From Eubacterium sp. (GTDB lineage: Bacteria > Bacillota > Clostridia > Lachnospirales > Lachnospiraceae): DNA of 41,320 nucleotides. A program made the position numbers and the translations under genes. Below are positions 3,977-40,786 of this stretch, piece by piece. The notes below the pieces were generated by a model, which was not told the origin of the DNA, ran no database searches, and worked only from the letters and a program-made list of their open reading frames with translations. Location of the stretch: assembly GCA_024697845.1 (NCBI GenBank), contig JAILRZ010000055.1, forward strand, positions 1 to 41,320, written 5' to 3'. Every line of letters begins with the position of its first letter. The first letter of the stretch is position 1.

Positions 3977-4453
3977 TGCACCCTGTAGGTTAAAAAGTGT
4001 TTCCAGGGTGCAGAAAAGAGGGAGCCATAAGGGGGATGCTGCACCCTGTGGCTTGAAAAACGATTCTAGGGTGCAGAAAAGGAAACACCAAGAGTTGTAT
4101 GCTGCACCCTACAGTACAAAAAGTGATTCTAGGGTGCAGAGAAGAGAGCACCAAGAGTTGTATGCTGCACCCTACAGTACAAAAAGCGATTCTAGGGTGC
4201 AGAAAAGGTAGCGCCAAGAGTTGGATGCTGCACCCTACAGGGCAAAAAGCGATTCTAGGGTGCAGAAAAGGCAGCACCAAGAGTTGTATGCTGCACCCTA
4301 CAGTACAAAAAGCGATTCTAGGGTGCAGAAAAGGTATCGCCAAGAGTTGTATACTGCACCCTACAGGCGAAAAAGTGCTTCTAGGGTGCAGAAAAGGTAG
4401 CGCCAAGAGTTGTATGCTGCACCCTACAGATGAAAAAATGAGTTCAGGGTGAA
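3977..4453. repeat. Eight tandem copies of a 63-bp palindrome-containing repeat
   Basis: TGCACCCT starts at 3977, 4040, 4103, 4166, 4229, 4292, 4355 and 4418, exactly 63 bp apart; each unit carries TGCACCCTA...TAGGGTGCA inverted repeat; last copy degenerate. Confidence 0.97.
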
Positions 4454-20673: not shown

Positions 20674-21579
20674 ATGACCATTTTACAGCTTAAATATGTG
20701 ATTACGATTGCAAGTTCAACGTCCATCCGGGAAGCTGCAGGGAAACTTTTTGTTTCACAACCTGCACTTTCCTCAACAATTCGAGAACTGGAAGAAGAGT
20801 TGGGAATCAAATTATTTAAAAGAAATAATAAAGGAATTTCTCTTACTGAACAGGGAAGTGAATTTTTAGTTTATGCCAAGCAGGCGGTAAGCCAATATGA
20901 ATTAATTGAAGATCGTTATATCCAGAAAGAGGGAGAAAAGAAACACTTTTCTGTTTCAATGCAGCATTATGTTTTTGCAGTACATGCATTTGTACAAACG
21001 GTAAAAAAATGTGATGCCGGAAAATATATTTATTCGGTTCATGAAACACGAACTGCAGAAGTGCTTACGAATGTGAGAGATATCAAAAGCGAGATAGGGG
21101 TAATCTCTTATTCAAAGAGCAATGAAAAAATTATGAGAAAACTGTTTCGAGAATATCAGTTGGAGTTTCATCCTTTAATGGTTCGCGAGACATTTGCATA
21201 TGTCTGGAAAGGACATCCGCTTGCAGAAAAAAAGGAAATATCTCTGGAGGAATTAAAAGACTATCCGTGTGTCAGTTTTGATCAAAGTAGTGACAACGAT
21301 TTTTATCTGTCTGAGGAAGCTTTGGGGGATTATGAATTTGATAAACTGATTAAGTCAAATGACCGTGCCACTTCGGCAGAAATGATGGCAGTACTAAATG
21401 GCTATTCCATCGGGACGGGAATCATGACAGATAGTGTTACTTTAAAGGATGAATTTGTGTCCGTAAAATTAAAAGAAGAAGATCCATTGACAATCGGGTA
21501 TATTATCCGAAAAAACCATAAGTTAAGTGAATTTGGAGATACATATATCGAAGAACTGAAAAAATATCAGGATCAATAG
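20674..21579 (+). CDS. LysR-family transcriptional regulator (island regulator 1)
   Basis: MTILQLKYVITIASSTSIREAAGKLFVSQPALSSTIRELEEELGIKLFKR HTH; paralogous to the 39890 product. Confidence 0.92.
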   Translation: MTILQLKYVITIASSTSIREAAGKLFVSQPALSSTIRELEEELGIKLFKRNNKGISLTEQGSEFLVYAKQAVSQYELIEDRYIQKEGEKKHFSVSMQHYVFAVHAFVQTVKKCDAGKYIYSVHETRTAEVLTNVRDIKSEIGVISYSKSNEKIMRKLFREYQLEFHPLMVRETFAYVWKGHPLAEKKEISLEELKDYPCVSFDQSSDNDFYLSEEALGDYEFDKLIKSNDRATSAEMMAVLNGYSIGTGIMTDSVTLKDEFVSVKLKEEDPLTIGYIIRKNHKLSEFGDTYIEELKKYQDQ

Positions 21580-21590
21580 GAGGAGCAACT

Positions 21591-23036
21591 ATGGCAGGAG
21601 TACAGTATTCTGGCGTGCGGGAAAGCAGGCCGGGACGATTTAATGATTTAGGAACTACAGGAAAGGAAGCGGAAGAACAGTTTCGAAAAGGATGTCTAAA
21701 GAGGGCAGACAGAAGTTTTGCACAGGGACTTCAGTGTCAGCAGATTAATAGTATGGCAGCTTTAATGTCATTGGAAGATTCGGTTTTTATCTCCCATTCT
21801 CCACAGGGATGTGTGGGCTGTGCCATTATGGCTGTTGACATGTATCGTGTTGGCCAGATTCATCGCGGAATTAAGCACGTGAAAAATCCACGATTATTTG
21901 TCACGAACATTGACCAGAAAAGTGTGGTGTTTGGTGGCGAACAGAAACTGAGAGATACCGTAAAGAAGGCAGTGGACCGATATCATCCAAAGCTGGCATT
22001 TATTTACGCTTCTTGTGCTTCAGGAATTATCGGGGATGATATTGATGCTATAGCAGCAGATTTACAGATGGAATATCCGGATACGGTTTTGGTGCCGATT
22101 CATTGTGAAGGATTTAAATCCAAAATATGTGCATCAGGTTTTGATGCGGCATTTATTTCCATTAATAAATATATTCTGAAAAAGGAAAATATTCCAAAGG
22201 AAAAAGGGTTGGTAAATCTTTTTGCACCAACAACGGTAAGCTTCGCAGATCAGAAAGAAATGGAGCGAATGCTGAATCAGTTAGGGGTTCAGGTAAACTA
22301 TATTCCGTTTTATAGTTCGCTGGAAAAAATCAAGAGAATTCCGGCAGCGGAAGCATCCACATCGATATGTAAGGTATTTGCCGATGAATTCATGAAAACA
22401 TTATGGGAGGATTACCAGATTCCGTATTCTCATACTGTGATGCCAATTGGAATCCGAAATACAGACAAATGGTATCGGGGAATTGCAAAAGTTCTTGGAA
22501 AAGAAAAAGAAGTAGAAGAAATCATTGCAAAAGAGCATGAACGAATTGAACCTCTGGTTGCAGCATTAAGGGAAAGACTTCAAGGAACAAGAGTATTTAT
22601 CTGTGGTGGAACGGGACGTTCCTTTGCAGCCGCAGCATTGATTGATGATTTTGGAATGGAACTGGTAGGTCTCGAAACACCAACCTATGATGAAGATGCC
22701 CAAGTGGATATTGAATATCTCAATGGGATTCATAAAGATTATGTGGTGGATATTGCGAATATGCAACCGTTCGAACAGGTAAATCTGGTAAACAAACTGA
22801 AGCCGGATGCATTTATTGGAGTGCCGGAGTGGGCTGCAAAATTAGGAGTTCCGACGACCCATGTATTGGATGGGAAACGACCAACCATGGGCTATGACGG
22901 ATTGTTGTTTTTAGGAAATAAAATTGCGGATCAGTTACAAAATCCAGGATTTAACAAGAAATTGGCAAAGCATGTGAAATTGCCATACAGAGATTCCTGG
23001 TATGAAGAAGATGCATTTAAATATATTCAAGAATAG
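21591..23036 (+). CDS. Nitrogenase-like alpha subunit (NifD/NifE superfamily), pair 1
   Basis: HSPQGCVGC, YASCASGIIGDDI, IHCEGFKSKI, STSICKVFADEFMKTLWEDYQIPY, TMGYDGLLFLGNKI; SD aggaggagc. Confidence 0.88.
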   Translation: MAGVQYSGVRESRPGRFNDLGTTGKEAEEQFRKGCLKRADRSFAQGLQCQQINSMAALMSLEDSVFISHSPQGCVGCAIMAVDMYRVGQIHRGIKHVKNPRLFVTNIDQKSVVFGGEQKLRDTVKKAVDRYHPKLAFIYASCASGIIGDDIDAIAADLQMEYPDTVLVPIHCEGFKSKICASGFDAAFISINKYILKKENIPKEKGLVNLFAPTTVSFADQKEMERMLNQLGVQVNYIPFYSSLEKIKRIPAAEASTSICKVFADEFMKTLWEDYQIPYSHTVMPIGIRNTDKWYRGIAKVLGKEKEVEEIIAKEHERIEPLVAALRERLQGTRVFICGGTGRSFAAAALIDDFGMELVGLETPTYDEDAQVDIEYLNGIHKDYVVDIANMQPFEQVNLVNKLKPDAFIGVPEWAAKLGVPTTHVLDGKRPTMGYDGLLFLGNKIADQLQNPGFNKKLAKHVKLPYRDSWYEEDAFKYIQE

Positions 23037-23087
23037 AAAACGAATAAAAAATTTCAAAATTTGAAGAAGAAAGGATGGAAGATAGAG

Positions 23088-24377
23088 ATGTCACAGATTA
23101 TGGAAAATCCAAAGGGTGGTTGCGTATTGGCAGGCATTAATTCGGTATTAGGTGCTATTGACAAAGTATGTCCCATTTATCATTCAGGACCGGGATGCTG
23201 TATGCAGACCACAGCAGCGGACCAGGGACAATCAGGACACAAGAGTTCTTGTTTTGTAAGCAGTGTATCTATGCCCTCCAGCAATATGCTTGAAAAAGAA
23301 GTTGTATTTGGTGGAACAGATAAACTTAGAACAACAATTCAGGGAGCGATTGATATTATTGATGCAGAAGCGTATTTTGTATTGACCGGGTGTACGGCAG
23401 GTATTATTGGGGATGATATTGTCAGTGTAACAGAGGAGTTTAATAACAAAGGACATCATGTTTATCCAATTGAAACACCGGGATTTGCAGGAGATAGTAA
23501 TCTGGGATATGAAGTCGTGTGGAATACCATGATTGATCAAGTGATTGAAAAGGATGTACCAAAGGATGAAAAGCTTGTTAATATTTTCGGAATTGTTCCA
23601 TATCATGACCCGTTCTGGAGTGGAACCTTGGAGGAAATCGACAGGATTCTTTCCCAATTGGGATTAAAGGTAAATACATTTTTCACAAAACATCAGGGAA
23701 TGGAGACGATTCGAAAATGTTCCGGAGCTGCATTAAATATTATAGTTAATCCATGGCTGTTTCAAGGGCCGGCTAAGAAATTTGAAAAGAAATTTGGTGT
23801 TCCAAGTCTTCGCATTCCGGGACTATTTACCGGTGCAACGGATACAACGAAATTTGTCAGGGCAGTGGGTGAAGCTTTAGACCTGGATCAGAAATTGATA
23901 GAGAGTGTGATTGATTCCGAGGAAGATTATGTTTATCAGTATTTGGCACAGGCGATTGGCGTTGTGAGTTGGAAGCGATTCGCAGTAGTAGCAGATGCAA
24001 ATAACGCAGTGGGCTTTACAAGATATTTGGCAAATGATTTCAGCTTTACCCCTGTACTGGTGATTGTTTCAGAACCAATTTTCCGAGAGGAAGACAAGGA
24101 GCGGATTATTGCGGAAATACAGGATTTGGAATATGCTGTGCCACCAAAGGTGCTGTTTTTAACAGATCAGTATGAAATTAATCAGGCTATTCGAAATGAA
24201 AAAAAGGAAATAACACTTTTAGTGGGAAGCAGCAATGAGAGAGAGATTGCTCTTGAGAAAGATATACAGTTTATCCTTGGAGCATTTCCGATGAATGAGC
24301 GTTTAGTCTTTAATCGAACCTATGCAGGATACCGGGGAAGTCTCACCTTCACGGAAGATATTTATGATAATAATTAA
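23088..24377 (+). CDS. Nitrogenase-like beta subunit (NifK/NifN superfamily), pair 1
   Basis: PKGGCVLAGI, IYHSGPGCCMQ, VLTGCTAGIIGDDI; ATG 23088 suggested (track starts at 23061). Confidence 0.87.
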   Translation: MSQIMENPKGGCVLAGINSVLGAIDKVCPIYHSGPGCCMQTTAADQGQSGHKSSCFVSSVSMPSSNMLEKEVVFGGTDKLRTTIQGAIDIIDAEAYFVLTGCTAGIIGDDIVSVTEEFNNKGHHVYPIETPGFAGDSNLGYEVVWNTMIDQVIEKDVPKDEKLVNIFGIVPYHDPFWSGTLEEIDRILSQLGLKVNTFFTKHQGMETIRKCSGAALNIIVNPWLFQGPAKKFEKKFGVPSLRIPGLFTGATDTTKFVRAVGEALDLDQKLIESVIDSEEDYVYQYLAQAIGVVSWKRFAVVADANNAVGFTRYLANDFSFTPVLVIVSEPIFREEDKERIIAEIQDLEYAVPPKVLFLTDQYEINQAIRNEKKEITLLVGSSNEREIALEKDIQFILGAFPMNERLVFNRTYAGYRGSLTFTEDIYDNN

Positions 24378-25027: not shown

Positions 25028-26044
25028 ATGGCAAAGATTTACAATTCAGTAACTGAGCTTGTTGGACATACACCGCTGGTTGAATTTAAAAGATTAGCAA
25101 AAGAATTAGGGTTAAAAGGAAGAGTTGTTGGAAAACTTGAGTACTTCAATCCGGCAGGATCTCACAAGGATCGTATCGCACTGGAAATTATTGAACAGGC
25201 AGAAGCGAGAGGAGAAATCAGTCCTGATAAAACAACATTAGTAGAATTTACAAGTGGAAACACAGGAATCGCTCTTGCAGCATTTGCAGCAGCAAAGGGT
25301 TATCCGTTTAGGATAGGAATTCAACCGGGAGTTTCCGTTGAACGATTAAAACTGATTGAAGCATACAATGCTGAAATTATTTCTGTGGAACCGGAACTTT
25401 TAGCTCCTGTGTACGAAAAAGGAATTGAGGCATTTGGACCGATTGTTGAAAAATTCGTAGAGGAGACACCAAACGGATATGCCACACTTCAGTTATCAAA
25501 TCCGGACAATGTAAATGCACATTATAAACATACCGGTCCTGAAATCTGGGAGGATACAGACGGAAATGTAGATGTATTTATAGGGGGAGTTGGTACCGGT
25601 GGTTCCACACACGGGGTAAGTAAATATCTTAAGGAACAAAATCAGGAAATCAAGACCATTGTCGTTCAGCCAGATCCAAAATCTGTTGAAAACTCAGCAG
25701 TAGAAGGAGCTACAGACGGAGGCTTCCATGGAATTCATCAGGTTCGTGATGAAAACGGACTGACCGCAATGACTCCGGATAACTTCAATGAAAATGTCAT
25801 TGATGAATATGAATATATCACTTATGCAGAAACTTTAAAAGCAATTCATCTTCTTGCAAAGTATGAAGGAATTTTTGTTGGTGCATCCGCAGGAGCTTCT
25901 CTGGCAATTGCGATTAAGGAAGCACGCAAGGAAGAAAATACAGGAAAGATTATCGTTCCACTTCTTCCGGATAATGGAGAACGTTATCTTTCAGAAGATA
26001 TTCAGAAAGTTAACCATGAGCTTGAAGACGGAGTTGAATTATAG
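25028..26044 (+). CDS. CysK-fold PLP enzyme (divergent cysteine synthase-like)
   Basis: VGKLEYFNPAGSHKDRIA (SHKDR instead of SVKDR), EFTSGNTGIALA, GGVGTGGSTHGVS, GASAGASLA. Confidence 0.85.
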   Translation: MAKIYNSVTELVGHTPLVEFKRLAKELGLKGRVVGKLEYFNPAGSHKDRIALEIIEQAEARGEISPDKTTLVEFTSGNTGIALAAFAAAKGYPFRIGIQPGVSVERLKLIEAYNAEIISVEPELLAPVYEKGIEAFGPIVEKFVEETPNGYATLQLSNPDNVNAHYKHTGPEIWEDTDGNVDVFIGGVGTGGSTHGVSKYLKEQNQEIKTIVVQPDPKSVENSAVEGATDGGFHGIHQVRDENGLTAMTPDNFNENVIDEYEYITYAETLKAIHLLAKYEGIFVGASAGASLAIAIKEARKEENTGKIIVPLLPDNGERYLSEDIQKVNHELEDGVEL

Positions 26045-26070: not shown

Positions 26071-27084
26071 ATGTCAAAGTTAAATTTAGAAAATGTAAAT
26101 AGGTTAAGTCTTGCAAATCTTCCGACACCGATTCAACGACTTGATAGATTATCTGAAGAATGGGGTGTTGATCTGTGGATTAAGAGAGATGATTATACCG
26201 GAATTGAAACATCGGGAAATAAAGTTCGAAAATTAGAATATACAATTGCAAAGGCATTGGAAGAAAAGGCAGAAGTTGTAATTACCTGCGGAGGAATTCA
26301 GTCAAATCATTGTAGGTCTACTGCAGCGGTTGCTGCAAGAGTAGGAATCAAATCTCATCTTGTACTTCGAATTGATGAAGAGCCACCGCTGGAAGGAAAT
26401 TACCTGCTAGATAAGATTTTAGGTGCTGAAATAACATTTATCACCAGAAAAGATTATTCGAACAGAAGAAATGAGATTATGAAGGAAATCGCAGATGCCT
26501 ATGAAGCAAAAGGAATTAAGGCCTATGTGATTCCGGAAGGAGCTTCCGATGGCGTAGGAAACCTGGGATATATTGAAGCGGTTCGAGAAATCAAGGCACA
26601 GGAAGAACAGCTTGGAGTCGACTTTGACACCATTGTATGTGCCGTGGGCTCGGGAGGAACCTACAGTGGATTATTCCTGGGGGCTAAACTTCTTGCTCCG
26701 GAAAAGGAAGTATACGCATTTAACGTATGTGATGATGAAGCGTATTTTCTGGATGTATGTACAAGAATTGCAAAGGATACAGTGCAGTCTTTAAATGCAG
26801 GAATTGAAGTGAGAGAAGAAGACATGCATATCATTGACGGATATAAGGGCATTGGATATGCAATTTCAAGAGATGAGGAACTTGAGTTTATTGTTGACAT
26901 AGCAAGAAAGGAAGGTATCATATTGGACCCGGTCTATACCGGAAAAGCATTTTACGGATTATATCATGAAATAAAAAAAGGCAACTTTAACAAGTCCAAG
27001 AGGATTTTGTTTATACACACCGGAGGACATTTTGGAGTATTTCCGAAACAGGAACAATTTGCGAAGTTGCTTCAGGAGGTGTAA
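26071..27084 (+). CDS. D-cysteine desulfhydrase / ACC deaminase-family PLP enzyme
   Basis: LPTPIQRLDRLSEEWGVDLWIKRDDYTGIETSGNKVRKLEY, CGGIQSNHCRSTAAVAARVG, VGSGGTYSGL. Confidence 0.88.
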   Translation: MSKLNLENVNRLSLANLPTPIQRLDRLSEEWGVDLWIKRDDYTGIETSGNKVRKLEYTIAKALEEKAEVVITCGGIQSNHCRSTAAVAARVGIKSHLVLRIDEEPPLEGNYLLDKILGAEITFITRKDYSNRRNEIMKEIADAYEAKGIKAYVIPEGASDGVGNLGYIEAVREIKAQEEQLGVDFDTIVCAVGSGGTYSGLFLGAKLLAPEKEVYAFNVCDDEAYFLDVCTRIAKDTVQSLNAGIEVREEDMHIIDGYKGIGYAISRDEELEFIVDIARKEGIILDPVYTGKAFYGLYHEIKKGNFNKSKRILFIHTGGHFGVFPKQEQFAKLLQEV

Positions 27085-28040
27085 TGATGCTCAAGAGACA
27101 TTTGAAAAAACTAGTTGGTATCCTTTCGGTTTTATTGGCAATTTTTGTTGATTTATGGATTCCGGATTCTGTAAAACAGCCGAAGGCAGCGGAACCGTAT
27201 TTTTTATACTTTTTATTTATTATTGGAACAATCTTTATTCTGTTCTATCTTGTATCACTGTTCCATAAAAAGACCTCAAAAAAACTGGAGGAATTGGGAC
27301 CATTGCTGGCAGGGGGCGTACTTGTTCTTAACCTGATCAATGTAGTTTGTAGCAAATACGCATTGCTTCCGGTATTGTTTTTCCCATCGCTGGATCGAGT
27401 CTTTGGGGTTTTCGTAAATGACAGGGAACTAATGATTCAATGTATTTTATCATCAGGAAAGCTTTTAATCATTGGATTTTTGGTAGGTGCAACCCTTGGC
27501 TTTATTACCGGTGTGCTGATTGGGTTTAACAAAAAGATTGCGTACTGGATGAATCCGTTTACAAAAATTATCGGACCGATACCCGCTACATCCTGGTCGC
27601 CGTTAGTCCTTTCATTGTTTAGTACATCCTATCAGGCAGCGGTATTTATGATTGCCCTTTCCGTATGGTTCCCGATTACGGTTATGACCAGTAGTGGAAT
27701 TCAAAATGTAGCGCAGACTTATTTTGAAGTGGCAGATACCTTGGGAGCAGGAAAGTTATATAAGGTATTTAAGGTAGGAATTCCGGCTGCATTACCTAGT
27801 GTATTCTTAGGATTCTTTTACGCAACAACAGCTTCCTTTGTAACTCTTGTTACAGCGGAAATGTTCGGCTGTAAGTCTGGAATCGGTTGGTATTTGAACT
27901 GGCAAAAGAGCATGATGCTCTATGCAAACGTTTATGCCGGATTAATATTGTTGGCAGTCTTATGTAATTTGATTTTGAAGCTGGTATTCAAAGTTAGAGA
28001 TAAAGCACTGAGCTGGCAGAAGGGAGTAATTAAATGGTAG
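27084..28040 (+). CDS. ABC transporter permease (SsuC/TauC type)
   Basis: Multiple TM; GFLVGATLGFITGVLIGFNKKIAYWMNPFTKIIGPIPATSWSPLVL, EVADTLGAGKLYKVFKVGIPAALPSVFLGF EAA loop. Confidence 0.9.
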   Translation: MMLKRHLKKLVGILSVLLAIFVDLWIPDSVKQPKAAEPYFLYFLFIIGTIFILFYLVSLFHKKTSKKLEELGPLLAGGVLVLNLINVVCSKYALLPVLFFPSLDRVFGVFVNDRELMIQCILSSGKLLIIGFLVGATLGFITGVLIGFNKKIAYWMNPFTKIIGPIPATSWSPLVLSLFSTSYQAAVFMIALSVWFPITVMTSSGIQNVAQTYFEVADTLGAGKLYKVFKVGIPAALPSVFLGFFYATTASFVTLVTAEMFGCKSGIGWYLNWQKSMMLYANVYAGLILLAVLCNLILKLVFKVRDKALSWQKGVIKW

Positions 28041-28813
28041 GAGAAATCAAAATCGAGCATGTGTCAAAATCTTTTGACAATCCGGATGGAACCGTGCTTA
28101 AGGCATTAAATGATGTAAACCTTACAATCAAACCGGGTTCCTTTGTATCATTGATTGGTCCTTCGGGCTGTGGGAAAACCACACTTTTAAGAGCAATCTC
28201 CGGACTGAATCTGGCAGACGAAGGAGTCATTAAGGTAGATGATGAACCGGTTACAAAGCCGGGGCATGAGAGAGGCTTTGCATTCCAACAAGCCAATCTT
28301 TACCCTTGGTTAACAATAGAAAAAAATATTTCTTTTGGATTAAAAGCCAGAGGAATCTATAAAGCAAAGAAAGAAGATGTAGACACCTACATAGATATGG
28401 TGGGGCTGAAGGGATTTGAAAATGCTTATCCACATCAGCTTTCGGGAGGAATGAATCAGCGTGCCTCTCTGGCAAGAGCATTGGTAGGTCACCCGAAAGT
28501 TTTATTGTTGGATGAACCTTTGGGAGCACTGGATGCCTTCACAAGAATGAATATGCAGGATGAAATATTGAGAATCTGGAAAGAACAGCAGATGACAATG
28601 ATTATGGTAACTCATGATGTGGATGAGGCAGTTTATTTGTCAGATCAGGTCGTGATTATGACCCCGCGTCCTGCAAAAATAGAACAGGTCATTGATATTG
28701 AATTAGCAAGACCAAGAGCGAGAGGTAATGCTGATTTCCTGAAGTATAGAACGAAAATACTGGAAATCTTAAATTACGCAGGTGAAGAAAGAGAACCTGA
28801 ATATTATCTATAA
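28034..28813 (+). CDS. ABC transporter ATP-binding protein (SsuB/TauB type)
   Basis: Walker A GPSGCGKTT, signature LSGGMNQR, Walker B VLLLDEPLGALD, VTHDVDEAVYL. Confidence 0.95.
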   Translation: MVGEIKIEHVSKSFDNPDGTVLKALNDVNLTIKPGSFVSLIGPSGCGKTTLLRAISGLNLADEGVIKVDDEPVTKPGHERGFAFQQANLYPWLTIEKNISFGLKARGIYKAKKEDVDTYIDMVGLKGFENAYPHQLSGGMNQRASLARALVGHPKVLLLDEPLGALDAFTRMNMQDEILRIWKEQQMTMIMVTHDVDEAVYLSDQVVIMTPRPAKIEQVIDIELARPRARGNADFLKYRTKILEILNYAGEEREPEYYL

Positions 28814-28825
28814 AGGAGAAAAATT

Positions 28826-29911
28826 ATGAAGAAGAAAATTTTAGCATTATTATTAGTAACTGTTTTAACCATGACAGCAGTTACAGGATGTGGAAATGAA
28901 GAAAAAGGGGGAAGTGCTGAAAAAGGAAAAGATGGTAAGCAGGTAGTGAAAATTTTGAACAACAAGGAAAGCTTATGTTTGGCACCGGTTCATATCGCAA
29001 TTATTAACGGATACTTTGACGAAGAATTTAAGAGCATTGGACAGGAATATAAAGTTGTAACATCAAACATTGATACAATCACAGAGCAGATTACCAGTGG
29101 GGAAATCAATGCAGGTTATGGATTGACAGGTACTTTAATGCAGCCAATTTCAAATGGACTTGCAATCTCCTTTGTAACTGGATTACACAGAGGATGTACA
29201 AAATTCTATTCCAAGAAGGGTACCGGAGTAGATCGCTTAGAAGACTTAAAAGGAAAAACAATTGGTGTGGCATCTCTTTCCGATTCAGCACCGATTCAGT
29301 TAAAGAGAAAGCTTTACAGCCTTGGGTTTAAAGTCAATGGTAGTGATGCAGATGTCCAGTTTGTCACCTATGCGATGACAGATCTTCCTGCAGCATTAGA
29401 CAACGGTGGTGTTGATGCCATTGGTATTCATGATCCGGTAGCTTACAATGCAGAAAAGAACTATGACTTTAATAAAATTTTGGATATTGGTGAAGACGAG
29501 GTATTCTCAAAAGAATATTGCTGCCAGGCATATGTTTCACAGGAATTAATTGCAAATAATCCGGAAGGGGCAGCAGCATATGCAAGAGCAATTCAGAAAG
29601 CAGCCGCTTTTGTTCAGGCGCAGCCGGAAGAAGCAGCAAGACTTCAGGTGGAACATGGATATATGCCGTCAGAAAGTGATGAAGATATTAAGAGTTATGG
29701 TGAAATCCTGGGAAGCTTAAACTATGAACCATCCGTAACTTTAGGTAGAGAAACTTTTGTGTCATCCTTTAAGGATCTTCAAAACACAGGTGATTTAGAT
29801 GCCTCATTGAAATTGGATGATTTTACAAAGAAAGTTTATCCTGATTTAGATGGTGTACCAAATGGTTATACTTATGATGCAAAAACAGATAAATTTACAG
29901 AAGTAAAATAG
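28826..29911 (+). CDS. ABC transporter substrate-binding lipoprotein (SsuA/NMT1-like)
   Basis: Lipobox TAVTGCGN; LAPVHIAIINGYFDEEF; LKGKTIGVASLSDSAPIQLKRKL. Confidence 0.9.
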   Translation: MKKKILALLLVTVLTMTAVTGCGNEEKGGSAEKGKDGKQVVKILNNKESLCLAPVHIAIINGYFDEEFKSIGQEYKVVTSNIDTITEQITSGEINAGYGLTGTLMQPISNGLAISFVTGLHRGCTKFYSKKGTGVDRLEDLKGKTIGVASLSDSAPIQLKRKLYSLGFKVNGSDADVQFVTYAMTDLPAALDNGGVDAIGIHDPVAYNAEKNYDFNKILDIGEDEVFSKEYCCQAYVSQELIANNPEGAAAYARAIQKAAAFVQAQPEEAARLQVEHGYMPSESDEDIKSYGEILGSLNYEPSVTLGRETFVSSFKDLQNTGDLDASLKLDDFTKKVYPDLDGVPNGYTYDAKTDKFTEVK

Positions 29912-29923
29912 TGGGAGAGAATA

Positions 29924-30331
29924 ATGAAGAAAATAATTGATTTCGTATTTTTATTATTATCAGTATTGGTTGTGGTTGGAGTAAACACATTTGCGAAAGT
30001 TTGTGGAAACATGATGGGCATGGAAGCACCGTGTCACACAACCAGAACCTATGCAGTTGTTGTTGGGATTATAGTGGCGGTGATTTCCGTTATTGATCTT
30101 GTGGTGAAAATCAATTGGTTTGGAAGCCTTACAAAGGCAATTCAATTGGTGGGAAGCATTGCAATTATTCTTACACCAACAGTCATTGCTCCGGTATGTA
30201 AAATGGAAACCATGCATTGTAGCTCACATACCAAGCCATTTCTGATTCTTGTGGGAGTGGTTGGAACCATCATTGCAATTGGAAGAATTCTAGGAGAAGG
30301 ATTGAAAGCTAAAGGAGCAAGAGATGAATAA
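29924..30331 (+). CDS. DUF4418-like four-TM protein with Cys/Met/His motifs
   Basis: CGNMMGMEAPCHTTRTYA and CKMETMHCSSHTKPF. Confidence 0.8.
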   Translation: MKKIIDFVFLLLSVLVVVGVNTFAKVCGNMMGMEAPCHTTRTYAVVVGIIVAVISVIDLVVKINWFGSLTKAIQLVGSIAIILTPTVIAPVCKMETMHCSSHTKPFLILVGVVGTIIAIGRILGEGLKAKGARDE

Positions 30332-31499
30332 ATCTCATAAACTGGCATGGAAAAGTATCTTGGCCAGTCCTTATCGAAGTTTAGGGTTAATGACAATTAT
30401 GTTGCTACTTTCCTTTATTATGGTCTTCGGAAACATTCTTGTTTTGGGAATGAGAAACGGGAGCAAAAACATTGTGGATAAAATGGGAGCAGACATCGTG
30501 GTTGTTCCAAAAGATTGTGAGGAAGATTACGAGGGAATTCTTTTGACCACAAGTAAGAACTTTTTTTACATGGACACATCGGTTGCAGATAAAGTTCGTA
30601 AAATCAAAGGAATTTCCAAAGTGTCACCCCAAACATTTCTTATGACATTAGAGGCATCCTGTTGTGATCAGTCAGCACAGATTGTTGGGATTGACATTGC
30701 TTCGGATTTTACCATTACCCCATGGACTGAACAAGGAAAGCTATCTGCTTTGGAGCAGGGTGAGATTATTGTAGGAAGTGATATTGCAATCAGAGAAAAC
30801 AATACTTTTCAGATGTATGATAAAACCTATCATGTGGCAGCAGTGTTGAGGAAAAGCGGAACATCTATGGATTCCACAGTTTATGTGAGTCAGGATGAAA
30901 TCGAAGTTCTGAAACAAAGAGCAAAGAAAAAGGGACAGGGATTTATTAGGGAAGTAACTGAAAAAGATATTTCAGCCGTGTTGGTTCAGGTCGATGAAAG
31001 GGAAAGAATTGATTCAGTAGTCGCAAGACTTTCGGCGGTTGATGGAATCTCAGTGATCTCTTCCGATTCGGTAACCAATAAGTTATCCGGTGAGATGAAA
31101 GAGGTTTATCAATCCTTTCTGGGAATTGTCATCACAGTACTGTTGTTCAGTTTTCTGATTGTTTTCATTATTGAGTACATTGTAATGAATGAAAGAAAAG
31201 CAGAGATTGAAACATTCAGAGTGTTGGGATTAAAAAGAAAGGGAATCAAAAGAATTCTTTTGACGGAAGCTTTTGCAATCTCAGGAACCGGAGCATTTCT
31301 TGGAATCTTTCTTGGGATTCTCTCGTCGGAGCTGTTTACAGTATGGATTAACGACTTACTTGAAATTCCATTCTTAAGGCCTACAATAACAGAAGAACTG
31401 GGACTGATTCTTGGAGGATTTCTGATTACGGTTGTAACCAGTGCAATCAGTATATTGCTCAATTTCAGAAGAGTTTATCCGGAATATGTATTTGATTAG
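30324..31499 (+). CDS. FtsX/MacB-like ABC transporter permease
   Basis: N-terminal TM, extracytoplasmic domain, three C-terminal TM segments, FRVLGLKRKGIKRILLTEA. Confidence 0.9.
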   Translation: MNKSHKLAWKSILASPYRSLGLMTIMLLLSFIMVFGNILVLGMRNGSKNIVDKMGADIVVVPKDCEEDYEGILLTTSKNFFYMDTSVADKVRKIKGISKVSPQTFLMTLEASCCDQSAQIVGIDIASDFTITPWTEQGKLSALEQGEIIVGSDIAIRENNTFQMYDKTYHVAAVLRKSGTSMDSTVYVSQDEIEVLKQRAKKKGQGFIREVTEKDISAVLVQVDERERIDSVVARLSAVDGISVISSDSVTNKLSGEMKEVYQSFLGIVITVLLFSFLIVFIIEYIVMNERKAEIETFRVLGLKRKGIKRILLTEAFAISGTGAFLGIFLGILSSELFTVWINDLLEIPFLRPTITEELGLILGGFLITVVTSAISILLNFRRVYPEYVFD

Positions 31500-31513
31500 T
31501 TTAGGAGAAAAAC

Positions 31514-32173
31514 GTGAAAGTAAATTTGGAAGGAATCACCAAAAAATATAAACGGGGAACCCGGGAACAATTAGTTTTAAATCAAATCAAAATGGAAATT
31601 CCTGAAGGAAAGCTTTTCCTGATTGTGGGAGAAAGCGGTGCAGGAAAAAGCACATTGATTAATATTATTAGTGGACTATGTAAAGCAGATTCCGGAAAAA
31701 TTACCTATAATGCGCAGGAGATTACGGAATTGTCTGACACACAACGTGCAGTGGTAAGGAACAGATACACAGGGATTGTAACCCAGAATTGTGATTTGAT
31801 TCCTTACCTCTCCGTAATCGAAAATATGAAGCTGACTTATGAAATAGGAAATCAAGAGGGGCGCGAAGAACAGAAAAAGAGTATGGATCTTGGAGTAATG
31901 GAACGTTTGGGATTGCTTCCGTTAAAAAACGAATTTCCAAAAAACTTATCCGGAGGAGAGATTAAGAGGGCAGCCATTGCAAGAGCGCTGATTACGGAAC
32001 CACCAGTTATCATTATGGATGAGCCGACATCAAATCTGGATTCAAAAAACAGGACAAAGGTCTTACAACTTTTAAAGGAATATGCACAGAGAGGACATAC
32101 AGTAATCATTAGTTCTCACGAAAAAGAAGCAATAGAATACGCCGATACGGTGTTTGAAATTAGTCGTCTGTGA
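31514..32173 (+). CDS. ABC transporter ATP-binding protein (LolD/MacB type)
   Basis: GESGAGKST, LSGGEIKRAAIARAL, VIIMDEPTSNLD. Confidence 0.95.
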   Translation: MKVNLEGITKKYKRGTREQLVLNQIKMEIPEGKLFLIVGESGAGKSTLINIISGLCKADSGKITYNAQEITELSDTQRAVVRNRYTGIVTQNCDLIPYLSVIENMKLTYEIGNQEGREEQKKSMDLGVMERLGLLPLKNEFPKNLSGGEIKRAAIARALITEPPVIIMDEPTSNLDSKNRTKVLQLLKEYAQRGHTVIISSHEKEAIEYADTVFEISRL

Positions 32174-32276: not shown

Positions 32277-33212
32277 ATGAGTGAAATTAAAGAAAGTGCT
32301 GTGGAGTTGATTGGACAGACTCCGATTTTGAAATTGAACAAGTACTCTGAAAAAAGAAATATTACAGAGGCTACCGTATTAGCAAAATTGGAATATTTAA
32401 ATCCGGCAGGATCTGTTAAGGATCGAATTGCTCAGGCAATGATTGAAGATGCAGAAGAACAGGGATTATTAAAGCCGGGAGCAACAATTATTGAACCAAC
32501 CAGTGGTAATACAGGAATTGGTCTTGCAGCTGTTGCAGCAGCAAAGGGCTACAAAGCAGTATTAACACTGCCGGATACGATGAGTGTTGAAAGAAGAAAT
32601 CTTTTGAAGGCGTATGGTGCAGAACTTGTTTTGACAGAAGGTGCAAAAGGAATGAAGGGGGCTATTGCCAAGGCAGAAGAATTAAATCAGGAAATTGAAG
32701 GTTCCGTAATTTTAGGACAGTTTATTAATCCGGCAAATCCAAAAGTACATAAGAAGACTACAGGTCCTGAAATTTGGAAACAGACAGAAGGAAAGGTTGA
32801 CATTTTTATTGCCGGTGTAGGAACTGGCGGAACAATCACAGGAGTTGGAGAATACCTTAAGGAACAGAATCCAAACGTGAAAGTAGTTGCTGTTGAACCT
32901 GCAAGTAGTGCAGTTCTTTCCACAGGAACTCCGGGAGCACATAAGATTCAGGGAATTGGAGCTGGATTTGTTCCGGAAGTGTTAAATACAAAAGTATACG
33001 ATGAAATCATTCCAATTGAAAATGATGATGCGTTTAAAGAAGGAAAAGAATTTGCTTTGTCTGAAGGAATTTTAGTTGGTATTTCTTCCGGAGCGGCGTT
33101 AAAGGCAGCAGAAATTCTGGCAAAGAGACCGGAAAACAAAGGGAAGACCATTGTGGCATTATTGCCGGATTCCGGAGACCGTTATCTGTCTACTCCGTTA
33201 TTTAACAATTAA
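32277..33212 (+). CDS. cysK: Cysteine synthase (canonical CysK-like, island copy)
   Basis: [54 protein letters not shown] aggagg. Confidence 0.93.
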
Positions 33213-33358: not shown

Positions 33359-34223
33359 ATGAGTAATACATACAAAGATTTGCAGAATTCTCATCCGTGC
33401 TTTGGAGGACATAAGAATAATGCCGGTAGAATTCATTTGCCGGTGAGTCCCGGATGTAATATTGCATGTAAATTTTGTGATCGCACAGTAAATGATGTAG
33501 AAGAAAGACCAGGCGTTACTTCGAAGATATTGAAACCGGAAGAAAGTGTGGAAATACTACGAAAGGCTTTAGATATATGCCCGGATATCAAAGTGGCAGG
33601 AATTGCCGGACCGGGAGATACGCTGGCGTCAGATAATGCACTGAATACATTTCGGATTATTAAGGAAAACTATCCGGAACTAATTAAATGTATGAGCACC
33701 AACGGACTATTGTTAAGTGAAAGAGCCGAGGAAATAATTGAGGTAGGAATTGATTCATTGACGGTGACCGTTAATGCGGTAGACCCTGAAATTGAAAGTC
33801 AGTTAAATGATTACATTATTTATCATGGTGAAAAAATAGAGGGTGTTGAAGGTGCAAAAATATTGATAAAAAATCAGTTAGAGGGAATCCGAAAACTTGC
33901 CGCAGCCGGTATTACGGTAAAGATTAATACGGTATTAGTTCCGGAAATTAATGGAGATCATATTGAAGAAATTGCAAAAACTGTAAAGGAAGCAGGTGCA
34001 AGCATCTACAATATAATTCCGCTGATTCCACAGCATAAACTGAAGGACTGTAAGGCTCCTGTCTGTGCGGAAATTGATGCTGCCAGAACAAAAGCATCCA
34101 AGTATGTGGATGTGTTCAGACATTGCCAGCATTGTCGCGCAGATGCAGTAGGAGTACCTGGAAAGTCTGAGTTTGGAGACCAGATTTATCAGAGGAGATT
34201 GAATGTAAAGGAGACATTTTCTC

Positions 34224-34231
<8 letters not shown>
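33359..34231 (+). CDS. nifB: NifB-like radical SAM cofactor maturase (no NifX domain)
   Basis: HPCFGGHKNNAGRIHLPVSPGCNIACKFCDRTVNDVEERPGVTS; CxxxCxxC; C-terminal HCQHCRADAVG. Confidence 0.92.
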
Positions 34232-35446
<1,215 letters not shown>

Positions 35447-35460: not shown

Positions 35461-36459
35461 ATGAGTAAGGTAAATAAATCAATCACAGAACTTGTGGGAA
35501 AAACACCCCTTTTAGAATTAGTAAATTATGAAAAGAAACATAACTTAGAAGCAAAGATTTTGGTAAAACTAGAATACTTTAATCCAAACCAGAGTGTTAA
35601 GGACCGTATTGCATTGTCTATGATTGAAGATGCAGAAAAGAAGGGTCTGTTAAAGCCGGGATATACAGTTGTTGAAACAACCAGTGGAAATACAGGAATC
35701 GGCTTAGCAGCCATTGCAGCAGCAAAAGGATACAAGTTCCGAGTATATGTACAGGACAATGTAAGTAAAGAACGATTCCAGGTAATTAAAGCATTCGGTG
35801 GAGAAACAATTAAACTGTCAGAAGAACCGGCAGTTGCACGTGTATTGGCAGAAACAAACGGTGATTTTGTTGCAGCGATTGCAGCACTTCGTGAAGAAGT
35901 ATTGTCCAAAGAAACAGGAATTTTCTTTGTAGATCAGACATCGAACCCAGCCAATCCGGCTGTTCATGAATTAACAACAGGTCCGGAAATCTGGGAAGAT
36001 ACCGAAGGAAATGTAGATATTTTTGTAGCAAATGTTGGTACAGGTGGAACAGTATCCGGTACCGGTAAATATTTGAAGAGCAAAAACCCTGATGTCAAGG
36101 TTGTAGCAATTCAGCCGGGAGCAAACTCATTGCCAAGTGATACAAATCCGGAACCGGAAGAAATTACCGGAGTACATCCATTTGAAGGCGTTCCGGCAGA
36201 AAGAGTTCCTTCCACAATGAACTTAAATATTTATGATGAAAAGCTCGAAGTCGAAACCATTGAAGCCTATCGAGCTGCCAGAGAAGTTGCTAAAACAGAT
36301 GGTATTTTAATTGGTACATCATCCGGTGGTGCAATTCACGCGGCAACTGTATTGGCAAAACGTCCGGAAAACAAAGGAAAGACAATTGTTGCAGTTCTTC
36401 CGGATACAGGTCTCAGATACCTGACTACAAATTTATTTAATGAAGAATATCAAGGATAG
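35461..36459 (+). CDS. CysK-fold PLP enzyme (divergent, island copy 3)
   Basis: VKLEYFNPNQSVKDRIA (NPNQS instead of NPAGS), [34 protein letters not shown]; about 20-aa insertion after IKLSEEP. Confidence 0.87.
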   Translation: MSKVNKSITELVGKTPLLELVNYEKKHNLEAKILVKLEYFNPNQSVKDRIALSMIEDAEKKGLLKPGYTVVETTSGNTGIGLAAIAAAKGYKFRVYVQDNVSKERFQVIKAFGGETIKLSEEPAVARVLAETNGDFVAAIAALREEVLSKETGIFFVDQTSNPANPAVHELTTGPEIWEDTEGNVDIFVANVGTGGTVSGTGKYLKSKNPDVKVVAIQPGANSLPSDTNPEPEEITGVHPFEGVPAERVPSTMNLNIYDEKLEVETIEAYRAAREVAKTDGILIGTSSGGAIHAATVLAKRPENKGKTIVAVLPDTGLRYLTTNLFNEEYQG

Positions 36460-36470: not shown

Positions 36471-37937
36471 ATGGCTATAAATTTAAGCAACTCAAATTTG
36501 GCTACAAGAGAAAACCGTATTGGTTCCATAACCGGATATGTAGGTTCTCTGAAAGATTTGGCAGAGCAGAGTGAGTGTGGAACTCTGAAGGGATGTTCCA
36601 GATGTTTCTCACAGTCCAGTTCCTGTCTTTCTAGTTGTGCGTTAGGTCAGCTGGCAGGAATCCGTGATGTGGCAGTGATTCATCATGGACCGGCTGGATG
36701 TTCTGTGGCAGCATCCAGTGCTTATTACATGTCCAGAGTAATGTCGAAAAAGAGAGGGGTTACTAGCGATACTGTTTATGTTGGAACAGATATGAATGAA
36801 AATGATACAATTTTCGGCTCTACAGAAACCCTTCGGAATGTCATTCTTCAGGTCAATGAACGATATTCTCCAAAGGCAATCTTCGTATCAAGCTCCTGTG
36901 CGACAGGAATTATCGGGGAAGATATCGACAGCATTGTGGATGAAGTAAGGGAGGAAGTAGATGTTCCGATTGTGGCGGTTCATTGTGAAGGATTTAAGTC
37001 TAGAATCTGGGCGACAGGATTTGATATTTCAGATCATGCTGTATTGCAGGAAATTGTTCAGCCACCAAGAGAAGGGGTTAAGACCAACAAGATTAACTTT
37101 AAGAACTTCTTTGAAAGTGCCAGACCGGAAATTATCGAAATGTTTAAGAACTTTGATTTGGAACCGGTATTCTTATACTGTAACTCTACAATCGAAGAAT
37201 TGTCTCATCTTTCAGAAAGTCTTGCAACCACATGTATCTGTGGAACGTTAGGAAACTACCTTGGAAATGCATTGGAAGAGAAATACGGTGTTCCTTACGT
37301 AAGAAGTATCAATCAGTGTGGAATCAAGGGCTTTGAGGCATGGTTACGTGAAATTGGTAAGGTGACTGGAAGAAGCGAAAGTATTGAAAAATACATCGAA
37401 GAACAAAGAGCAATTTATATTCCACAGATTGAAGAAGTAAAGAAGGAACTTCAGGGCTTGACGGCAGTTCTCGGTATGGGACCGGGCTACACCTTTGAAG
37501 TATCCCGAGTATTGGATGAATTGGGAATTAAAGTAGACTGGGCTTTGGCATGGCACTATGACAAGAAGTATGAGAATGGTGATGTGCCACCATCCATGAA
37601 ATATTTATTGGACAATGATATTGATTTCGAAACCAGCGTGGCAGATCAGCAGAATTATGAAGTGATGAATATTCTAAATAAGTATCAGCCGGATTTATAT
37701 TTATCACGTCATCCGGGTTCTACCGTTTGGGCAATCAAGAACGGAACTCCTGCAGTCTATGTTGCTGATGAGTATATGATTTTTGGATATAAACATACAT
37801 TAGAATTCGCTAAGACAATTGTTGATGCGATTAAAAACAGAAGTTTTGAAGAAAATCTTGCAAAGAGAACAAAACTTCCGTATACGGATTGGTGGTATGA
37901 TCAGGACGTAGATACATTCTTAGAGGAGGCAAAATAA
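36471..37937 (+). CDS. Nitrogenase-like alpha subunit (NifD superfamily), pair 2
   Basis: GCSRCFSQSSSCLSSCALGQ, IHHGPAGCSVAAS, SSSCATGIIGEDI, VHCEGFKSRIWATGFD, CICGTLGNYLGNALEEKYGVPY; ATG 36471 suggested. Confidence 0.92.
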   Translation: MAINLSNSNLATRENRIGSITGYVGSLKDLAEQSECGTLKGCSRCFSQSSSCLSSCALGQLAGIRDVAVIHHGPAGCSVAASSAYYMSRVMSKKRGVTSDTVYVGTDMNENDTIFGSTETLRNVILQVNERYSPKAIFVSSSCATGIIGEDIDSIVDEVREEVDVPIVAVHCEGFKSRIWATGFDISDHAVLQEIVQPPREGVKTNKINFKNFFESARPEIIEMFKNFDLEPVFLYCNSTIEELSHLSESLATTCICGTLGNYLGNALEEKYGVPYVRSINQCGIKGFEAWLREIGKVTGRSESIEKYIEEQRAIYIPQIEEVKKELQGLTAVLGMGPGYTFEVSRVLDELGIKVDWALAWHYDKKYENGDVPPSMKYLLDNDIDFETSVADQQNYEVMNILNKYQPDLYLSRHPGSTVWAIKNGTPAVYVADEYMIFGYKHTLEFAKTIVDAIKNRSFEENLAKRTKLPYTDWWYDQDVDTFLEEAK

Positions 37938-39235
37938 TGGCAAAGTTATTAGATAAACAGAGATATAAGTGTGCTCTGGGAGCGATGCAGACTGTGCAGG
38001 CAATTGACCGTGCCCTGCCGATTCTTCACTCCGGTCCTGGATGTGCACAGAAACTTTCAGATACCACAGGAAGCTCAGGATATTTTTCTCCAAACATTTT
38101 TCCATGTACCAGTATTAACGAGAAAGATGTAGTTTTCGGTGGAGTGAAAAAATTAAATTCTACAATTGAAAATTCCTTAAAAGTAATTGATGCGGATTTA
38201 TATGTAGTACTTACCGGATGTATTCCTGAAATTGTAGGGGATGACTCCGGGGAAGTTGTCTCAAGGTTTGAGGATGCGGATAAGCCGGTACTTTATGCTC
38301 CAACAGCAGGATTTAAGGGAAATAACTACAAAGGTCATGAACAGGTTGTGGATGCAATCATTGATCAGTATCTTCAGAAATCTGACAAAACAGAAAAAGG
38401 ATTGGTAAACATCTGGGCAGATGTACCTTATCAGGATTTATTCTGGTTGGGTAACATCAGAGAATTAGAAAATCTGATTCGTGAAATTGGCCTTACACCA
38501 AACACAATTTTTGGATTCAAGCGAGGCATTGACAATATCAATAAAATACCGGAAGCAGAATTCAATCTTCTTGTATCTCCATGGGTAGGTCTTGGAAATA
38601 TGAAAAAGATGGAAAGAAAATTTGGAATTCCATATCTTCATTATCCAACCCTTCCAATCGGAGCAACAGAAACAAGCAAGTTTTTAAGAGAAGTCGGTAA
38701 ATTTGCCGGTGTTGATGAAGAAAAGGTTGAAGCAGTTATAAAAGAACATGAAGATTACTATTACTATTTAATTGAAAGATATGCAGATCTGTTCTTGGAA
38801 AACCGTGTCATCAACAAGCAGTTCACAGTTGTGGCAGATGCTCAGTATACACTTGGTGTAACAAAGTTCCTTGTAAACGATTTAGGACTAATCCCTGCAA
38901 AACAGTTTGTTGTGGATGATACGCCGAAAAAATACAGAGAACAGATTTCAGAGGAATTTAAGAAACTAAATTATGGAATTCAGGCAGATGTTTCTTTTGA
39001 AACAGACGGCTTTAAAATTCATGAAGAAATCAAAGAACACGACTATCATGGATATCCATTAGTACTTGGTGGTTATTATGAAAAGGAAGTAACGGAAGAA
39101 TTAAAAGGAAACTTCTTAAATATTTCATGGCCGGTACAGGATAAGGTAGTATTTGACAGTTTCTATGTTGGATACGCAGGTGGAATTCGCCTGATTGAAG
39201 ATATCTACACGGTAGCAGTACAGAGATTTAACTAA
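37937..39235 (+). CDS. Nitrogenase-like beta subunit (NifK superfamily), pair 2
   Basis: YKCALGAMQTVQAI, LHSGPGCAQK, VLTGCIPEIVGDD; start overlaps upstream stop (TAATG). Confidence 0.92.
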   Translation: MAKLLDKQRYKCALGAMQTVQAIDRALPILHSGPGCAQKLSDTTGSSGYFSPNIFPCTSINEKDVVFGGVKKLNSTIENSLKVIDADLYVVLTGCIPEIVGDDSGEVVSRFEDADKPVLYAPTAGFKGNNYKGHEQVVDAIIDQYLQKSDKTEKGLVNIWADVPYQDLFWLGNIRELENLIREIGLTPNTIFGFKRGIDNINKIPEAEFNLLVSPWVGLGNMKKMERKFGIPYLHYPTLPIGATETSKFLREVGKFAGVDEEKVEAVIKEHEDYYYYLIERYADLFLENRVINKQFTVVADAQYTLGVTKFLVNDLGLIPAKQFVVDDTPKKYREQISEEFKKLNYGIQADVSFETDGFKIHEEIKEHDYHGYPLVLGGYYEKEVTEELKGNFLNISWPVQDKVVFDSFYVGYAGGIRLIEDIYTVAVQRFN

Positions 39236-39328: not shown

Positions 39329-39760
39329 ATGGCATATAAAATAGCAGTTGGTTCCTCAGATGAAAAAAACGTAGATTTAAAATTTGGAGAGGTCCGTGAG
39401 TTTATTATTTATGAGGTAGAAAACGGAGAGATACATTTATTGGAAAAAAGAAAAGTAAGGGAAAATGAGGCAAACATAGAATGTAATACGTCCGGGGCAG
39501 GATGTGACAGTAGTGGATGCTCCGGAAACGGAAATGGATGCGGTGGTCCGACAAATGTGATAGGAAAGGTTGAAGCCTTGGCTGACTGCAGGTGTGTTGT
39601 TTGTAAAAAGGTAGGATTTCAGGCACAAAAACAGTTTGAAAAGAAAGCAATTTCCGTATTTGATGTGGACTGTGAAGTGAAGGAAGCATTGGAAAAAATT
39701 ACTTTCTATTATAATAAGCTTGATAAGCATGAAGCGTTTTCAAGAAGAAATCATTTGTAA
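39329..39760 (+). CDS. NifX-like protein with Cys/Gly-rich insertion
   Basis: IAVGSSDEKNVDLKFGEVREFIIYEVENGE... CNTSGAGCDSSGCSGNGNGCGG... ALADCRCVVCKKVGFQAQKQFEKKAISVFDVDC. Confidence 0.83.
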   Translation: MAYKIAVGSSDEKNVDLKFGEVREFIIYEVENGEIHLLEKRKVRENEANIECNTSGAGCDSSGCSGNGNGCGGPTNVIGKVEALADCRCVVCKKVGFQAQKQFEKKAISVFDVDCEVKEALEKITFYYNKLDKHEAFSRRNHL

Positions 39761-39889
39761 ATATTTAATTAAGGTTCCTATTATGGTAAACTGAGGACAA
39801 ATGATGACCTATGGGGAGGTTGTTCAACGATTACTGAATTGATTATGAGCAGTCAGAATGTCCGCGATAATCATAGAAAAGAGGGAAAA

Positions 39890-40786
39890 ATGACATTACA
39901 GCAGTTGAAATATATCGTAACTGTAGCGGAAACAGGGAATATTACAGAGGCGGCAAAACGCCTTTTTATTTCACAACCCAGCCTTACCAATGCTATTCGG
40001 GAACTGGAAAAGGAAATGCAGATCACTATTTTTAACAGAACGAACAAAGGGGTAATGATTTCTGATGATGGAAATCTGTTCCTGTCCTATGCCAGACAGG
40101 TACTGGAACAGGCGGATTTATTAGAAGAAAAGTTTCTCAATAAGAAAGAAACAAAACCGAGATTTTCCGTTTCCTGTCAGCATTATTCCTTTGCAGTAAA
40201 TGCCTTTGTGGATTTGATTCGAACCTTTGATGCAAATAAGTATGATTTTACGTTGCGGGAAACCCAGACCTTTGAAATCATTGAAGATGTGAGTCGAATG
40301 AAAAGTGAAATTGGGATTTTATACACTTCTTCAAAGAATGAGCAGGTGTTAATGAAATTGATGAAGCAGCATGAATTGGTCTTTGAGGAATTATTTGTGG
40401 CAAAGCCCCATGTATTTATCAATTCCAACCATCCATTGGCAAAGAAAAAATCTTTAACCTTGGAAGATTTGGAAGATTATCCATACCTTTCCTTTGAACA
40501 GGGGGAGTATAATTCCTTCTATTTTTCAGAGGAAATCTTAAGTACCTTGGACCGAAAGAAAAATATTAAAGTTCGCGATAGAGCGACATTGTTCAACTTG
40601 CTGATTGGATTAGACGGCTATACGGTGAGTTCCGGTGTGATTAGTAAAGAATTGAATGGGGAAAATATTATTGCCAAGCCACTGATGGTGGAGGAATATA
40701 TGAAGATTGGCACGATTACACAGAAGAATTCGACTTTAAGCAGATACGGAAAAGTGTATATGGAAGCGTTAAAAAAACATATCTGA
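39890..40786 (+). CDS. LysR-family transcriptional regulator (island regulator 2)
   Basis: MTLQQLKYIVTVAETGNITEAAKRLFISQPSLTNAIRELEKEMQITIFNR; ATG 39890 with GAGGG SD preferred over 39839. Confidence 0.92.
   Translation: MTLQQLKYIVTVAETGNITEAAKRLFISQPSLTNAIRELEKEMQITIFNRTNKGVMISDDGNLFLSYARQVLEQADLLEEKFLNKKETKPRFSVSCQHYSFAVNAFVDLIRTFDANKYDFTLRETQTFEIIEDVSRMKSEIGILYTSSKNEQVLMKLMKQHELVFEELFVAKPHVFINSNHPLAKKKSLTLEDLEDYPYLSFEQGEYNSFYFSEEILSTLDRKKNIKVRDRATLFNLLIGLDGYTVSSGVISKELNGENIIAKPLMVEEYMKIGTITQKNSTLSRYGKVYMEALKKHI

Follow-up and report, generated by a model that had tools for sequence, protein, structure and literature searches.

Two nitrogenase-like enzyme pairs beside one NifH and one NifB in a rumen-type Lachnospiraceae genome: a predicted MAR-type cluster pocket and a candidate nitrogenase-type ligand

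Among nitrogenase-like enzymes, the closest characterised one to the proteins described here is methylthio-alkane reductase (MAR, MarBHDK) of Rhodospirillum rubrum (PDB 9fmg, 9d9u), which cuts C-S bonds and reduces methylthio-alkanes to methanethiol. Its [Fe8S9C] cluster has Cys270 and His429 as ligands, the latter standing beside Arg428 in a loop absent from nitrogenases, and the Arg428-His429 pair was regarded by the structure's authors as a possible hallmark of MAR (PMC12552129). In its alpha subunit MarD, Phe199 replaces the nitrogenase His195 and Trp195 lies in the pocket, and the enzyme does not reduce 15N2 (PMC12552129). The same authors were unable to infer which His ligand the ancestor shared by MAR and the nitrogenases had used (PMC12552129). 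A second described system with a sulfur role is isethionate reductase (Isr, IsrBHDK) of Rhodobacter capsulatus, which resembles the locus reported here in belonging to the nitrogenase-like group IV, in its connection with sulfur uptake, and in its Ssu transporter (PMC11423573). The Mo, V and Fe nitrogenases (NifDK, VnfDK, AnfDK) have in common with this locus the P-cluster Cys, the Cys275 ligand, NifH and NifB.

The window, namely the whole stretch of 41,320 nucleotides of Eubacterium sp. contig JAILRZ010000055.1 that was analysed, holds exactly four PF00148 genes, which are all those of the genome (94.9% complete) and form two alpha/beta pairs, D1K1 (pair 1) and D2K2 (pair 2) (Table 1). No other PF00148 gene that could encode NifE or NifN was found in this 94.9% complete genome, nor was any NifV over the cut-off, which separates the host from the nitrogenase systems, and a genome search returned a single close NifH. 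Each pair keeps its six P-cluster Cys, and the NifB-like protein keeps HPC, CX3CX2C, ERP, AGPG, TVTVN and CX2CRxDA; a NifB-like protein (MarB) together with NifH is also what MAR employs. These are the parts to be expected where an [Fe8S9C] cluster contains neither Mo nor homocitrate, which is the case in MAR. The window's NifH passes the NCBI nifH equivalog cut-off, so that automatic annotation would call the organism a nitrogen fixer. The host genome is of the rumen Lachnospiraceae type, and a same-genus relative is the rumen MAG "uncultured Lachnospiraceae bacterium RUG11188". Elsewhere in the window, overlapping ORFs on both strands at 3990-4452 consist of copies of one unit (about MLHPTVQKAILGCRKGSTKSC), in what looks like a short tandem-repeat array.

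Table 1. Genes and predicted cluster-pocket residues of the window, in order of position
Feature	Positions	Strand	Basis
LysR-type regulator upstream of D1	20674..21579	+	
D1, alpha subunit of pair 1, separate clade without MAR ligand loop	21591..23036	+	481 aa, PF00148, tree, AF2
D1 C180...F184, at Gln191 and His195 positions	22128..22142	+	alignment
D1 C260, predicted Cys ligand (NifD Cys275)	22368..22370	+	alignment
D1 G410, on NifD Gly424 (Arg428 in MarD); short nitrogenase-like Loop I	22818..22820	+	alignment
D1 H424-V-L-D427, on NifD His442-S-W-Asp445; H424 candidate second ligand	22860..22871	+	hhalign, global and local
K1, beta subunit of pair 1, three P-cluster Cys (C21, C46, C111)	23061..24377	+	Cys check
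CysK-like PLP enzyme	25028..26044	+	
D-cysteine desulfhydrase / ACC-deaminase family enzyme	26071..27084	+	TIGR01275 above cut-off
SsuCBA-like ABC transporter (permease, ATPase, lipoprotein)	27084..29911	+	SsuA family E 2e-20, PF00528, NMT1
CysK, cysteine synthase A	32277..33212	+	TIGR01139 449.5 bits, above cut-off
NifB-like radical SAM enzyme without NifX domain	33359..34231	+	TIGR01290 E 2e-77, six NifB motifs kept
NifX/NafY-like cluster-binding protein 1	34224..34583	+	PF02579
NifH-type Fe protein, cluster Cys C97 and C132	34598..35446	+	TIGR01287 466.9 bits, cut-off 394.35
CysK-like PLP enzyme, between nifH and D2, directly upstream of D2	35461..36459	+	below cysteine synthase equivalog cut-offs
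D2, alpha subunit of pair 2, MAR-type nitrogenase-like catalytic subunit (predicted)	36471..37937	+	488 aa, PF00148, best structure 9fmg_A
D2 W180...F184-D185, at Gln191, His195 and His196 positions	37008..37025	+	alignment
D2 C257, predicted Cys ligand of [Fe8S9C] cluster (MarD Cys270, NifD Cys275)	37239..37241	+	alignment, conservation
D2 H362, at MarD His375, near belt sulfide S2B	37554..37556	+	alignment, conservation
D2 R413-H414, at MAR hallmark Arg428-His429, Loop I; H414 predicted second cluster ligand	37707..37712	+	alignment, conservation, PMC12552129
D2 F438...H442 (MIFGYKH), at NifD His451 and following residues	37782..37796	+	alignment
K2, beta subunit of pair 2, three P-cluster Cys (C12, C36, C95)	37937..39235	+	Cys kept in relatives
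NifX/NafY-like cluster-binding protein 2	39329..39760	+	PF02579
LysR-type regulator, end of cluster	39839..40786	+	

NifD positions were numbered on a sequence that we take to be that of A. vinelandii NifD, as its Cys62, Val70, Cys88, Cys154, Gln191, His195, Cys275 and Gly424 fall at the known numbers; it is 68% identical to an annotated Agrobacterium NifD. The MarD letters in the solved-structure alignment match the published numbers (Trp195, Phe199). The ORFs of D1 and D2 are intact; that of D2 has its ATG at 36471, in register with the start of MarD, and its limits and quoted motifs are as an earlier note on this DNA had given them. The alignment agrees with that note in placing Trp (W180 of D2) and Cys (C180 of D1) at Gln191, and in finding the Cys275 equivalent kept in D2 (C257) and D1 (C260). 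The note had further read His195 as replaced by Asp, which is off by one residue: CEGFRGVSQSLGHH over CEGFKSRIWATGFD aligns gap-free with Phe at His195 (Phe184 in both D2 and D1) and Asp at His196, so that Asp185 occupies the His196 position and is rejected as a His195 substitute. Neither alpha subunit has Gln191 or His195. The His of PYHGFDGF, taken in the note for His442, is in fact His451, and His442 is the His of MHSWD; since clostridial NifDs with Gln191, His195 and His442 intact have Ala at 451, the loss of His451 is uninformative.

Residues W180, F184, C257, H362 and R413-H414 of D2 are each invariant in its 87 relatives of at least 70% identity, which indicates that these substitutions are due neither to chance nor to sequencing noise, and the P-cluster Cys C52, C77 and C143 are likewise all kept among them. 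At the nitrogenase positions Gln191, His195 and Val70, D2 carries Trp, Phe and Gly, and it keeps neither His442 nor Gly424. From the alignment, D2 is predicted to retain a second ligand His, located on another loop than that of nitrogenase, namely H414 as in MAR. The earlier note had asked whether the GYKH His of pair 2 (D2 H442) could reach the cluster; no such ligand is needed, as this His is found in 85 of the 87 relatives, with Gly in its place in MarD and in most other relatives, being not conserved beyond the D2 clade, whereas H414 is, and is present in 87 of 87. The note's prediction of a differently anchored cofactor and a non-N2 substrate thus stands in outline for pair 2, whose pocket is of the MAR type by sequence, although the reasoning that led there was partly wrong (His195 to Asp, a misplaced His442).

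D2 and MAR are alike in the P-cluster Cys, Cys270, His375, the Arg428-His429 loop, Trp and Phe at Gln191 and His195, and the fold, and they are unlike in that D2 belongs to a separate clade (about 33% identical), has Ile/Val for MarD His194 and Gly/Ser/Ala for Cys73 (both sites being variable within the MarD clade as well), and is wedged into a cysteine-synthase cluster. The closest solved structure for both D1 and D2 is R. rubrum MarD (9fmg, 9d9u), by a wide margin. D2 matches 9fmg_A at E 7e-89 and the first nitrogenase at 1e-32, and its AF2 model (pLDDT 88) finds 9fmg_A as top match with TM 0.89/0.93 and nitrogenases at about 0.7. In a tree with 63 rows, the D2 and MarD clades are sisters with joint support of 100/100, and each is separately supported; a single member across these two clades is of known activity, and all members have Arg-His except L031, which has Arg-Gly-His. 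A D protein of the same genus (G016, L032) groups on the MarD side.

Further alpha subunits were met beside these clades. A third class in Clostridia (L079:8973-10481, L080:9089-10651, L073:7298-8881, L075:8753-10270, L082:9301-10824, L086:3259-4803) keeps the Cys ligand, has Tyr at His195 and, at Gln191, mostly Met, Phe or Val (L080 has Trp there), and carries a lone His on nitrogenase Gly424 with neither Arg nor loop extension, possibly another cluster anchor. Two others (L033:4764-6128, L077:9511-10944) have lost two of the three P-cluster Cys and have Asn/Asp at Cys275, an isethionate reductase-like pattern; both fall in another clade, and the L033 genome also has a D2-side protein.

The alpha subunit of pair 1 departs from MAR in a different manner. 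D1 has Cys, Phe and Ala at Gln191, His195 and Val70, retains Phe alone of the MAR pocket residues Trp195, Phe199 and His375, and lacks both the His375 stretch and the Arg-His loop, which are deleted in all 23 of its relatives; C180, F184 and C260 are invariant in the same 23. By profile alignment, D1 has Gly (G410) at nitrogenase position 424 and a candidate for the His442 ligand. In the hhalign comparison of the D1 profile with the NifD profile, both global and local, T-H424-V-L-D427 falls on M-H442-S-W-D445, and counting back from the common GY/GF motif places H424 exactly at the His442 distance. MAFFT puts a two-residue gap behind H424 and leaves 442 empty, and equating H424 with His442 requires the gap to stand in front. 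H424 is invariant in the D1 relatives (23/23), and G116, a 44%-identical D1 homologue of another family, keeps it together with G410, D427, C260 and the P-cluster Cys. Cys180, Cys338 and His281 of D1 are weakened as candidates for the second ligand, as they are lost in G116, which retains H424. The equivalence of D1 H424 with NifD His442 is therefore a strong lead, not proof, and the D1 cofactor may be anchored as in nitrogenase, although Gln191 and His195 are lost. Of the two His that the earlier note had considered missing from pair 1, the profile alignment restores the one at 442 and not the one at 195. The AF2 model of D1 (pLDDT 88.7) also matches 9fmg_A best (TM 0.85/0.87), with nitrogenases reaching TM 0.77; it is nearer to the nitrogenases than the D2 model is, which agrees with the nitrogenase-like loops suggested for D1 by alignment. 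The D1 clade has its own support of 100/100 and stands beside MAR and D2 with modest support (89/77). D1 thus appears, from its residues, to be an unstudied type that seems to hold its cluster as nitrogenase does.

The neighbourhood of D2 is a sulfur-assimilation setting. Counting loci with enough flank, D2 is immediately preceded by a CysK-type gene in 45/52 Bacillota, 5/8 Bacteroidota and 8/8 Spirochaetota loci (58/68 overall), and NifH and NifB are encoded upstream in 50/51 and 44/48 of the Bacillota loci, respectively. Cystathionine lyase/synthase-type or PatB C-S lyase genes occur near D2 in 32 of the 47 loci with full flanks, and CymR-like regulators and serine acetyltransferases recur around D2 loci. 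The CysK-like enzyme that adjoins D2 in the window differs from the window's CysK in scoring below the cut-offs, and its acceptor or thiol substrate may not be the same. The stretch 29924-32173, which separates the Ssu-like transporter from the nif-like block, encodes a small membrane protein, an FtsX-like permease and an ABC ATPase; this trio comes after the Ssu genes in several relatives as well (e.g. L097, L103, L106), and would be a linked exporter.

D2 relatives of at least 81% identity were found in rumen and gut Lachnospiraceae, Butyrivibrio, Ruminococcus, Treponema and Bacteroidales, and such identity across Bacillota, Bacteroidota and Spirochaetota points to recent horizontal transfer between phyla; the rumen isolates Butyrivibrio hungatei NK4A153 and Lachnobacterium bovis DSM 14045 possess D2. 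On the Treponema saccharophilum plasmid pTS2 (L168, 324100-355551), nifB, nifX and nifH accompany two nitrogenase-like pairs, one D2-like at about 61% and one MarD-side, which adjoin a type I-C CRISPR locus, and an O-acetylhomoserine sulfhydrylase (metY-type) and cysK precede the nifB-nifX-nifH block. No sulfite/nitrite reductase domain was found in the host genome, and sulfite reductase is absent from 44 of the 50 D2 genomes; a sulfite product, which would be of little use there, is therefore disfavoured. This absence is nevertheless weak evidence that the product is sulfide or a thiol, because 0 of 22 same-genus genomes, with or without D2, have a sulfite reductase, and 44 of 60 relatives have none.

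Based on these findings, we propose with moderate confidence that the two pairs are reductases that share a single NifH and a single NifB and free usable sulfur from organic sulfur compounds, with pair 2 working like MAR. NifB would make the [Fe8S9C] cluster, which the NifX-like proteins could hand on, and D2 would hold it by Cys257 and by His414 of the MAR-type loop, with Arg413 at the belt sulfide, while NifH with ATP would send electrons through the P-cluster. The Ssu-like transporter could import a small organic sulfur compound, whose C-S bond would be reductively cut by D2K2, and the CysK-type enzymes encoded alongside could capture the released sulfide or thiol. The substrate of D2K2 may be a thioether, as with MAR, or some other small organic sulfur compound, and its likely product is sulfide or a thiol. 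D1K1, which goes with the shared NifB and NifH, would be a second, optional reductase: its cluster would most likely be held by Cys260 and the nitrogenase-type His424, and Cys180 would lie in the substrate pocket, on which grounds its substrate should differ from that of D2K2. More tentatively, and with less than even confidence, D1K1 may be an unrecognised [Fe8S9C] enzyme outside the MAR group, with a nitrogenase-type His424, no MAR loop, and Cys at Gln191.

Other roles for the two pairs have to be weighed against this proposal. D1K1 could be a non-enzyme cluster scaffold for D2K2, analogous to NifEN, because two DK pairs stand beside one NifB and NifH (and beside NifX, as does NifEN) in the manner of nif clusters, and all 3 genomes with a close D1 in a class survey of 391 also have D2. 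However, a close D1 (at least 72% identical) is present in 26 of the 50 D2 genomes and absent from the other 24, by which distribution an obligatory scaffold role is ruled out; moreover, pair 1 keeps all six P-cluster Cys, K1 having Cys/Cys/Cys where NifN has Ser/Cys/Ala, and MarBHDK alone suffices for MAR in a heterologous system (PMC12552129). We therefore hold a scaffold role of any kind to be unlikely. Somewhat less likely still is that pair 2 is an Isr-like enzyme freeing sulfite from sulfonates. Identity with Isr is ruled out by the Cys pattern, as IsrD has a single P-cluster Cys left out of three and no Cys275 ligand, and IsrB is not a NifB-type synthase (PMC11423573), whereas the window proteins, D2 among them, keep all of these; the proteins with an Isr-like pattern (L033, L077) form a different clade, and the host genome has no sulfite reductase match. 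What speaks for this reading is the Ssu-like transporter in the cluster, SsuCAB being needed for Isr growth (PMC11423573). A sulfonate as such is a possible substrate of D2K2.

That the pairs are unusual, working group IV nitrogenases, fixing N2 with an Fe-only cluster, seems to us very improbable, yet loss of residues does not by itself prove that N2 is not reduced, since a group IV homologue is described as functional and N2-fixing in Endomicrobium proavitum (PMC11257099), and the L-cluster ([Fe8S9C]) on NifEN or NifB reduces N2 (PMC13245594); D1, in addition, has nitrogenase-type Gly424 and His442 positions by hhalign. Against it, Val70, Gln191 and His195 are lost in both alpha subunits, MAR fails to reduce 15N2 with the same cluster (PMC12552129), the genome is without NifEN and without a NifV over the cut-off, the neighbours are all sulfur genes, and rumen N2 fixation is reported as negligible (PMC6776011). 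A non-N2 role is likely for both pairs. Least probable, and scarcely to be credited, are tetrapyrrole-type reductases with [4Fe-4S] clusters only (DPOR, COR, CfbD, group VI): the distant matches to the BchB and CfbD models score far below the model cut-offs, the Cys cofactor ligand and a complete NifB are kept, and no tetrapyrrole genes lie nearby.

Part of this picture was known before, namely the MAR chemistry and the clostridial nifH that are often "pseudo" (PMC8597730), and a putative nitrogenase (NifH) was scored in about 23% of 501 cultured rumen genomes (PMC6776011). Among open-licence papers, none turned up with a substantive connection between MAR and rumen bacteria, the terms co-occurring only in a study of wood-rot fungi. 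What this work adds is that many rumen nifH genes belong with the D2 clade, that this clade is linked to cysteine synthase in three phyla, and that the group has in D1 a candidate member with a nitrogenase-type ligand. If the reading of D1K1 is true, a nitrogenase-type ligand would occur in a sulfur-cycle enzyme, which would bear on the ligand of the common ancestor, the question left by the MAR structure paper (PMC12552129). In conclusion, a sulfur role of the MAR-like pairs may explain why nifH is common in the rumen despite negligible N2 fixation, and it would provide a residue test for false diazotrophs, namely the Arg-His loop present with Gln191 and His195 absent; if D2K2 cuts thioethers, methanethiol or sulfide, along with small hydrocarbons, would be produced by gut bacteria from three phyla.
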